Source of the DNA: Candidatus Yanofskybacteria bacterium RIFCSPLOWO2_02_FULL_41_13
Lineage (GTDB): Bacteria > Patescibacteriota > Minisyncoccia > 2-02-FULL-40-12 > GWA2-44-9
Direction of reading: 5' to 3'
Assembly: GCA_001795735.1 (NCBI GenBank)
Contig: MGKQ01000005.1
Coordinates: forward strand, 1 to 35,151
DNA length: 35,151 bases
Shown here: positions 13,772 to 22,094 of the stretch, one piece after another
Layout: every line of letters starts with the position of its first letter
How positions within the stretch are numbered: the first letter of the stretch is position 1
Translations under genes and position numbers: made by a program
The notes under the pieces: model-generated
Told to the model about the DNA's origin: nothing
What the model saw: only the letters and a program-made list of their open reading frames with translations
Databases searched by the model: none

Positions 13772-14440
13772 CTACTCATCGATCATAATCTCTTCGTTTA
13801 AAGCTTTTTTAGCAGGACTCATTTTTAAAAAATCGGAATATTTATTTTTACCCAAAAATTGAGAAATTATGACCTCTCTTTTTAGGATCTCTCCCCATCT
13901 ATTTTCTTTGGTATAGTCTTGATAACTTGACCATGGATAGTATTTTTCTCTATTTTTCCATTCTTGAATCTCTCTCGGATTGCGATGAATATATGTAGAA
14001 AGATATAGTAACTGCTCGTTGTTATCGATAGGTACTGCTTTGTAGGGACCTTGAAAGAGATGACCAACCTTATCATATTTAGTGTTAAAATATTTGGTAT
14101 ATGAATTTAAAACTCTTTGCATATATTTAGATATGCCTCCCTCGCTAGTTTCGGCAAGGGTTAAGTGAAAGTGGTTTGGCATAATGGCGAAATTTATCAA
14201 GTCAGTGTATCTGCGCTCAATTATAGTTTTTTCTAAGTCTTTTGATATGTTAAACACCCGGTGTTTAACATAATAAGATGTTTGTCGGCCTAAATTGTAA
14301 AAGTTAATTGGCGATTGGAAATAAAGAATGAGGAATAATAATCTAACCCAGTCTCTTTGGTCTGAAAATATATTTTGTTTATTATTACCTCTATTAAAAA
14401 TATGATAGTATCCTCCAGTTGTGATTTTATTTTTGCGCAT
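13772..14440 (-). CDS. REP-associated tyrosine transposase (Y1 / RAYT, IS200/IS605-like TnpA)
   Basis: GGYYHIFNRGNNKQNIF, HUH motif MPNHFHLTL, YMQRVLNSYTKYFN with candidate catalytic Tyr, LFQGPYKAVPI, YIHRNP. Start taken at MRKNKI; the track start at 14482 reads into the flanking palindrome. Confidence 0.93.
   Translation of the reverse strand: MRKNKITTGGYYHIFNRGNNKQNIFSDQRDWVRLLFLILYFQSPINFYNLGRQTSYYVKHRVFNISKDLEKTIIERRYTDLINFAIMPNHFHLTLAETSEGGISKYMQRVLNSYTKYFNTKYDKVGHLFQGPYKAVPIDNNEQLLYLSTYIHRNPREIQEWKNREKYYPWSSYQDYTKENRWGEILKREVIISQFLGKNKYSDFLKMSPAKKALNEEIMIDE
14246..14272. repeat. REP-like palindrome P2 inside the RAYT coding sequence
   Basis: TATGTTAAACACC-C-GGTGTTTAACATA; encodes ...YVKHRVFN... 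in frame. Confidence 0.88.
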
Positions 14441-14455
14441 TGTTAGTATATAGCA

Positions 14456-14501
14456 TGTTAAACACCCAGTGTCTAACAGCATTCAGTGTCTAACAGCATT
14501 C
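14456..14501. repeat. REP-like palindrome P3 plus 17-bp tandem duplication at RAYT 5' side
   Basis: TGTTAAACAC-CCA-GTGTCTAACA (one mismatch), then AGTGTCTAACAGCATTC twice (14468-14484 and 14485-14501). Confidence 0.88.
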
Positions 14502-20914: not shown

Positions 20915-20956
20915 AGATACAGTATATATTATTTTGGGGCAAGTATTAAGCGTTCG

Positions 20957-21160
20957 CAAACCCCTCCCAATTTCTCTCCAGTCCTCGTCTGCGTCAATAT
21001 CTTCGAACATAGACTAGGATTTATATAACAATAATCACAGGTACCCTCGCTTGCCTCTTCATTATCATTCAGCGCTCGACCTCGTGATTATTGTATAAAT
21101 CCAGTTCAGTTCTCAGATATTTCCTTGTCTGCGGAAGGAGAATAAATTGGGAGGGGTTTG
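20957..21160 (-). ncRNA. Long-hairpin element A (candidate structured RNA or foldback element)
   Basis: 17-bp perfect terminal inverted repeat CAAACCCCTCCCAATTT (20957-20973) / AAATTGGGAGGGGTTTG (21144-21160), plus inner stem GGATTTATA(TAA)CAATAATCAC / GTGATTATTGTATAAATCC; homologous to element B in opposite orientation. Confidence 0.6.
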
Positions 21161-21186
21161 TTCACTATCTATCATTGCAGAAATTA

Positions 21187-21209
21187 AAAAGTGCGAGACT
21201 ATCGCACTT
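21187..21209 (-). terminator. Intrinsic terminator of the 121-aa gene
   Basis: Minus strand AAGTGCGA-TAGTC-TCGCACTTTTTAATTT. Confidence 0.75.
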
Positions 21210-21573
21210 AGTAACTTGCTTTTAGACTGGCCACTGATTGTCTCAGACTCTCGATCAGCCTGTCTAAAACTTCGGCTTCGTAATTTACCATTTGGAAGGC
21301 GGTCGGCTCTACACCAGATACAGCAACAACATACTGTTTTAATAGATCTCTGAGCGACAGTTTTCCCAATGAATAGCCAGACATCATAAATCTGGCATCC
21401 CATGAACCATCTTTGTTCAGATATAGGCGTTGGTCAACAACTGGCAAAACATTATTTTCGGGCAATAGGCGTAGAGCTTCTTTCTCCAGTTCTTTAAAAG
21501 TATTAATATCTCTTTGGCTAAGCATCTCGAGTTCCGCTTGGGAATGAACTAAAACTGTATCCCACAATAACAC
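21208..21573 (-). CDS. Orphan 121-aa hypothetical protein between hairpin elements A and B
   Basis: ORF followed at once by an intrinsic terminator; no recognisable motif; start codon uncertain (GTG at 21573 or an internal ATG). Confidence 0.55.
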   Translation of the reverse strand: MLLWDTVLVHSQAELEMLSQRDINTFKELEKEALRLLPENNVLPVVDQRLYLNKDGSWDARFMMSGYSLGKLSLRDLLKQYVVAVSGVEPTAFQMVNYEAEVLDRLIESLRQSVASLKASY

Positions 21574-21619
21574 TCTTTATCTACGTAAGTCCAGCACTCA
21601 CCTCATAACAACCAAGTGA

Positions 21620-21818
21620 ACCCCTTCTCAATTTTATATCCTTCCGCAGTCTAGGAGATATACGAGAACTGATATGAATTTATCCGATAATAATAGGTCG
21701 AACGGTCGCCTTAGGCGACAGGCAAGAGAGGGTACCTGTTATTATCGGCTATAAATTCTTAATTAGTTTGAGTATGTCGACGCAGACGAGGACTGGACTA
21801 TAAAAATTGAAAAGGGGT
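21620..21818 (+). ncRNA. Long-hairpin element B (inverted, diverged paralogue of A)
   Basis: Outer stem ACCCCTTCTCAATTTTATA / TATAAAAATTGAAAAGGGGT; inner stem CCGATAATAATAGG / CCTGTTATTATCGG; apical hairpin GTCGCC-TTA-GGCGAC; 19-nt identity with A (GACGCAGACGAGGACTGGA). Confidence 0.6.
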
Positions 21819-21827
21819 GAGCGATAT

Positions 21828-21856
21828 TTGCAGGAAATTTTGTTATCTGATACAAT
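21828..21856 (+). promoter_or_regulatory. Putative sigma70-type promoter upstream of element C / rny
   Basis: TTGCAG-N17-TACAAT (a TATAAT also overlaps at 21856-21861). Confidence 0.5.
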
Positions 21857-21886: not shown

Positions 21887-22036
21887 GTAAGTAAATGTCT
21901 GCGCACAGCGTAGCGAGCACAGGGACAGTTACTTACCCCGCCCTCTAAGCTTGTTGTAATCGATAATCATATTGCATAGAAGGATCATTTCTTAGATAGG
22001 GTGTTATAGATCATACGACGGGCATAGAGGGCGGGG
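21887..22036 (+). ncRNA. Structured leader element C upstream of rny (two adjacent hairpins)
   Basis: GTAAGTAA (21887-21894)/TTACTTAC (21929-21936), then CCCCGCCCTCTA (21936-21947)/TAGAGGGCGGGG (22025-22036), extended inside by GCUUGUUGUA/UACGACGGGC with G-U pairs. Confidence 0.55.
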
Positions 22037-22094
22037 TTGCGAGTTTCTTGCTATTCGCTTTGCTCATAGACAAACATGCAAACTTTTCAAAAAA

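Follow-up and report, generated by a model that had tools for sequence, protein, structure and literature searches.

A dispersed non-coding foldback element of Candidatus Yanofskybacteria with conserved internal loops, freely varying but paired stems and frequent placement behind stop codons

Two long hairpins in the gpmI–rny interval

The window analysed here is a 35,151-nucleotide stretch of contig MGKQ01000005.1 from Candidatus Yanofskybacteria bacterium RIFCSPLOWO2_02_FULL_41_13. Its gpmI–rny interval, which separates two divergent genes, is enlarged by two long hairpins (A and B) and by an open reading frame (ORF) without relatives. Throughout, 'canonical' denotes the sense in which B sits on the plus strand, namely 5'-AAGCGA...GAGCGA-3'. 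The features of the interval are as follows.

20949..21168, minus strand: element copy A, with its canonical 5' end at 21168 and the outer stem CAAACCCCTCCCAATTT/AAATTGGGAGGGGTTTG
21208..21573, minus strand: 121-residue ORF (P0001), situated between A and B
21614..21824, plus strand: element copy B, canonical 5' AAGTGA ... GAGCGA 3'
21614..21619, plus strand: 5' terminal motif of B, AAGTGA (family consensus AAGCGA)
21644..21649, plus strand: middle module of B, 5' side, CCGCAG, opposite GACGAGGA
21695..21704, plus strand: apical module of B, 5' side, AGGTCGAACG
21721..21737, plus strand: apical module of B, 3' side, GGCAAGAGAGGGTACCT
21785..21792, plus strand: middle module of B, 3' side, GACGAGGA, opposite CCGCAG
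21819..21824, plus strand: 3' terminal motif of B, GAGCGA (family consensus GAGCGA)
21828..21856, plus strand: putative rny promoter, TTGCAG-17-TACAAT (by eye), also present at rny in same-genus genomes

A preceding sequence-only reading had described A and B as hairpins that fold end to end, with B being a diverged, inverted copy of A. Both hairpins were found where they had been placed, and both fold as described. The RNA folding energy of A is -90.6 kcal/mol, compared with -48.0 +/- 4.6 for shuffled sequences (z = -9.3), and that of B is -87.6 kcal/mol (z = -8.4); for either hairpin, 0 of 200 shuffles were as low. The arms of the two copies match over 73 nt at 78%, 32 nt at 84% and 26 nt at 92%. 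The sequences of the middle and apical loops are common to A and B, and the stems differ in sequence with their pairing kept. The limits given for the two hairpins were right in position but too narrow at the outermost ends, where the terminal motifs add approximately 5–8 nt per copy. The orientation of A in the sense of gpmI and of B in the sense of rny was likewise borne out. B cannot, however, be the rny leader, because it lies upstream of the conserved rny promoter: the 3' edge of B stops approximately 4 nt short of the -35 box of the putative promoter (by eye), and this promoter (TTGC.., 17 nt, TAxAAT) is kept at rny in genomes G001 and G002 (also by eye).

The 121-residue ORF between A and B has no Pfam match and no relative among 27 genomes of the family, and nothing indicates that it is a member of the element. 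As a candidate for the mobilising gene, it was rejected for its lack of a domain and of relatives. A further inverted repeat, CCCCGCCCTCTAAGCTTGT / GCATAGAGGGCGGGG, is located between B and rny (21935–22037), and a very similar sequence is present behind another gene of the same genome.

Copies and distribution of the element

A and B are not a private pair of RNAs but members of a dispersed element family, being two of approximately 44 copies of a non-coding foldback element of about 210–280 bases. A DNA search and a covariance model (R1, built from 19 copies) identified 12 complete copies in the genome to which the window belongs, plus one masked copy and one cut by a contig end. The other R1 matches in this genome were reverse-strand echoes of the same hairpins. 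The element is carried by 12 of the 28 genomes of the family. In a sample of the phylum, it was found in 2 of 389 genomes, both belonging to the same family, and was absent from the other 387. A scan for the core pattern in one genome per GTDB species yielded 23 loci, 22 of them in Ca. Yanofskybacteria and one in another metagenome-assembled genome.

No match was detected in the phages, plasmids and viral contigs searched. Rfam gave no match at the gathering threshold, and a relaxed threshold produced only sub-threshold matches to microRNAs and scaRNAs, none of which is credible. The element appears not to have been described before; the open-access literature on repeats in CPR/Parcubacteria contained no description of it that we could find.

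Fold, internal loops and covariation

Conservation was analysed in a set of 44 copies (45 entries, one of which is a duplicate register). The element folds into one long rod in which terminal, middle and apical loops stand at constant spacing, and the stems between the loops vary freely yet always pair. In canonical order, the 5' arm consists of an AAGYGA-like end, the outer stem, the middle loop, the inner stem and AGGTCGARCG, followed by the apical loop; the 3' arm then runs through GGCAAGNGAGGGTACCT, the inner stem, the middle loop and the outer stem to a GAGCGA-like end. The fixed part comprises three internal loops of the form CGAG opposite CGAG, or CGCAG opposite CGAG. The end loop is AAGCGAAGCC / GGCGGAGCG, the middle loop is TGACGAGTC or CCGCAGTC / GGCGAGGA and the apex loop is AGGTCGAGCGCC / GGCAAGCGAGGGTTACCT. 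By their sequences, loops of the CGAG type have the potential for tandem sheared G.A pairing. We did not retain a kink-turn interpretation of the apical loop, since its bulge, in our own reading, is not on the side of the G.A pairs where a kink-turn would have it. Of the 41 copies measured, 39 have 51–55 nt between the middle loop and the apical core on the 5' side and 53–57 nt on the 3' side. The two outliers are L003, which has a palindrome inserted in the 3' arm, and L002, where the pattern matched the wrong spot.

The pairing of the stems is specific to each copy. Among 41 copies, cognate outer arms pair at -34.3 kcal/mol versus -14.9 kcal/mol when arms are swapped between copies (z = -21.7), and the corresponding values for the inner arms are -37.5 and -15.3 kcal/mol (z = -20.0). 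In the core alignment of 19 copies, both sides have changed in 15 of 29 pairs, and compensated cells number 51, compared with 17.4 +/- 3.4 in shuffles (reached in 0 of 500). The covariation score in this alignment is lost when the pairing partners are slid. The compensatory stem changes first noticed between A and B are therefore real and extend well beyond that pair, and the view of A and B as a selected structure rather than a plain palindrome is supported by the arm-swap, pair-count and strand-bias tests (the last described below).

Several copies (L007, L011 and L020) contain a nested palindromic repeat, GTCCCGATT...AATCGGGAC, in the apical loop beside GAGGGT. In addition, single arms with TCCGCCAGCTGGCGGA and an insert bearing GTGCTTTAGCCG were observed (L003, L029 and L035).

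The selected strand

The constraint acts on one strand only, the canonical (B-sense) strand. When the arms were compared without favouring wobble pairs, mismatches on the canonical strand included 87 G.T versus 27 A.C (p = 1.5e-8, an optimistic value because the copies share common ancestry and the counts are not fully independent) and 82 A.G versus 6 C.T. The excess of G.T over A.C is alike at copies adjoining stop codons (45 versus 15) and at the others (42 versus 12). The complementary strand would hold mostly A.C and C.T mismatches, which fit a helix less well; it is the folded canonical strand that is under selection. Selection on an RNA would likewise yield more G.T than A.C.

Position relative to genes

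In 22 of the 44 copies, the 3' end of the element adjoins the stop codon of a convergent gene; the count is of long reading frames that run on the opposite strand and terminate no more than about 12 nt from this end. Approximately one such copy would be expected (p = 4e-23) from the chance rate of 2.7%, which was obtained from 128,620 intergenic bases of the genome of the window; stop-to-stop frames over 90 codons were counted for the observed set and ORFs of 100 codons or more for the background. The adjoining genes are housekeeping genes, including rpoC (twice), ftsZ (twice), khpB/jag (twice), rnc, gyrA, ftsK, pheS, the ribonucleotide reductase gene, Sua5, lemA and others. TAG is the stop codon at 12 of the 22 junctions, compared with 67 of 309 (22%) genome-wide (p = 8e-4). 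The sequence CGCTC behind stop codons was rejected as a general property of genes, since it or a near variant was present at 9 of 309 gene ends, some of which are elements.

Where the native terminator is visible, for instance at rpoC of G000, the element is located between the stop codon and the terminator, and the copies seen are either intergenic or placed at the margin of an intergenic region. Landing directly behind the stop codons of essential genes affects the build of the 3' ends of key mRNAs, such as those of rpoC, ftsZ, gyrA and rnc. Because it is the 3' end of the element that meets the converging gene, the strand under selection runs antisense to that gene, which argues against the 3' end of the mRNA as the selected molecule.

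Evidence for mobility

The element is dispersed and has been recently mobile. Genome G018 contains two copies that are 98.4% identical over 255 bp and have unrelated flanks. Empty sites are present in relatives: the element lies directly behind ftsZ in G000 and G021, and there is none in G001–G003 of the same genus; it lies behind rpoC in G000 and G010, and there is none in G001 or G020; and the divergent neighbours gpmI and rny are without A or B in G002, G005, G006 and G008. These findings, together with the patchy distribution, uphold one suggestion of the sequence-only reading, that of a foldback mobile element. Its dichotomy, in which covariation would indicate an RNA and a lack of covariation a miniature inverted-repeat element (MITE), fails because the element combines covariation with mobility. 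Evidence of covariation is not in itself enough to establish a functional RNA.

No target-site duplications were detected among the 16 copies for which an automatic placement of the ends succeeded; the longest flank match there averaged 4.25 for cognate and 3.74 for swapped flanks, with junctions fixed only to within a few bases.

Proposed mechanism and alternative explanations

On balance, and with some reserve, we favour the view that this is a non-coding, non-autonomous element that is moved in trans via a folded single strand and placed next to a short target. A fold constrained on one strand with conserved mismatches, the lack of a detectable duplication and a short target together point to movement as single-stranded DNA by an enzyme supplied in trans. 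Such an enzyme would recognise the folded strand as a DNA hairpin with G.A modules and would insert the element beside a short target, which in canonical-strand terms is often (A)CTA. In a compact genome, the space separating a stop codon from its terminator would be where insertions are tolerated. It seems to be fold and spacing that are recognised, given that the three modules and their distances are conserved on one strand and the stems are free. The element may thus serve as a testable case of a transposition signal read by its shape in the streamlined Patescibacteria.

The leading candidates for the mobilising enzyme would be transposases of the IS200/IS605 type (Y1, HUH), because these act on one strand, read mismatched hairpins and make no duplications. 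Known Y1 hairpins are much shorter than the element. Y1 (IS200/IS605-like) genes are present in the genome of the window, one of them within the window, but the intact Y1 genes inspected there are flanked by repeats other than the element, and the idea that the element flanks Y1/RAYT genes was rejected. The presence of Y1 genes across relatives does not track that of the element. A coding version with the termini of the element was sought in 787 kb of the 1022 kb and none was found; this search needed the two terminal motifs together and picked up only a few of the hairpins already known. The RAYT-like Y1 transposase gene at 13772–14482 of the window has GTTAAACACC palindromes inside and beside it, with no link to A or B. 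Separately, inverted arms of 24 nt (GAAATACCCGACACTCC...) were seen within the reading frame of a Y1 transposase that borders the end of a contig (L203:14627-14829), which may be an assembly chimera.

An explanation that we regard as fairly unlikely is that the element functions at the RNA level, with every copy giving rise to a rod-like RNA of the canonical strand that binds a protein or modulates mRNA decay, and with mobility being incidental. The molecule would be a transcript antisense to the gene that the element follows, or a separate small RNA. The strong conservation of pairing with tolerance of G.T and the very stable RNA folds of A and B are in its favour, and tandem G.A modules are common protein-binding motifs in RNA. 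However, the antisense orientation of the selected strand in 22 of 44 copies does not suit a role in the adjoining mRNA 3' end, and copies that are nearly identical have different flanks, so that a promoter outside the element would not be the same for them. Furthermore, most sister genomes are without the element, which argues against an essential function, and B lies upstream of the rny promoter.

A standard MITE, mobilised by a DDE transposase that recognises the terminal inverted repeats, would account for a short, non-coding, dispersed element with inverted repeats at its ends. This explanation is improbable: the outer inverted repeats are not the same from one copy to the next, and each arm matches only its partner in the same copy, so that they cannot serve as a common recognition signal; cognate flanks are hardly more alike than swapped ones; and the bias towards one strand also speaks against it. 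Even less probable is an attC-like folded-strand site behind stop codons at which a tyrosine recombinase of the integron type shuffles genes. The folded single strand, variable apical structure, strand specificity and position right behind stop codons are all features that such a site would have, but no RYYYAAC/GTTRRRY ends were seen by eye in the end alignments, no arrays occur, and the adjoining genes are conserved housekeeping genes, of which ftsZ and rpoC are without the element in relatives. Finally, the suggestions that A and B are a 6S-RNA-like regulator or cis leaders of gpmI and rny, which their rod shape and their sense, the same as that of the next gene, had invited, can hardly be sustained for a multicopy element that is patchy within one family, has no credible Rfam match, is missing from the readable gpmI–rny intervals of relatives, lies behind stop codons in half of its copies and, in the case of B, ends upstream of the conserved rny promoter.

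Comparison with known systems

By analogy, the element appears to work most like the YPAL and REP elements, and it is filed under neither because at least one defining feature of each was tested and not found. YPALs (Yersinia palindromic sequences, RU-2) are reported to follow stop codons closely as a rule (De Gregorio et al. 2006), which resembles the insertion of the element close behind stop codons in 22 of 44 copies. Both are mobile repeats that are short, non-coding and prone to fold strongly, and both have occupied as well as empty sites. YPALs are about 168 bp long, are linked to upstream genes and have target duplications of 3–26 bp (PMC2229807). In contrast, no target duplications were found for the Yanofskybacteria element, which also differs from YPALs, as compared by description, in its three G.A modules, free stems, one-strand bias and different phylum.

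The nearest mechanistic parallel is provided by the GTAG REP/REPIN sequences and their RAYT (Y1) transposases. REPs are palindromic hairpins read as single strands, as is proposed for the element, and TAG is over-represented at the junctions of the element. Cleavage by RAYT is reported to need mismatches at the edge of the hairpin loop, and neighbouring genes often take their TAG stop from the GTAG terminus of a REP (PMC3733652). REPs are, however, 20–40 bp long with a fixed GTAG tag, whereas the element is about 210–280 bp and the base before TAG is not fixed; moreover, the RAYT genes inspected in the genome of the window are flanked by other repeats.

Several families of Rickettsia palindromic elements (RPEs) proliferate in small genomes, in which respect they resemble the present hairpins; RPEs are shorter and many are inside genes, in contrast to the intergenic or near-intergenic copies seen here. 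Integron attC sites share the single-strand folded site behind a stop codon and the variable apical part, but the element is without R and L boxes (R'' RYYYAAC, R' GTTRRRY), arrays or cassettes. RPEs are among the elements listed in PMC2229807.

Related families of long hairpins

A scan for long hairpins, made on slightly overlapping stretches that total approximately 787 kb of the 1022-kb genome of the window, revealed further families of the same design. Family II, which is distinct in sequence from the family of A and B (family I), starts with AAGCGAA, has CGCAGACC opposite GGTCGA and ends with GAGC; its members include those at L207:13220-13416, L197:4749-4955, L210:16648-16857 and L188:14393-14614. 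Here too, the outer arms are variable in sequence yet paired (z = -6.4). The strand bias of family II is in the same direction but not significant (17 versus 8, p = 0.11). Family II was found in 9 of the 60 genomes searched, 8 of which also carry family I (Fisher p = 0.001). The near-identical sets of carriers of families I and II, together with their same termini, are as a shared mobiliser would predict.

A hairpin of family III follows TAG and the adjoining TCGCTC behind ftsZ in G043. Members of family IV are located at L215:12685-12819, which has AAGCGAGG...CCGAGCGACTA, and at L205:12359-12496, L220:5315-5452 and L187:6722-6933. We tentatively suggest that there are at least three or four sequence-distinct families that share AAGCGA...GAGCGA termini, modules and the post-stop target, and that one enzyme might read their shape and spacing, rather than the stem sequence, via folded single strands. 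That a single mobiliser is common to families I–IV is a conjecture. Family IV is also observed to have outer arms of the form AGAGACTATACCC with nested palindromes inside, and one of its members has AAGCGA...GAGCGACTA ends.
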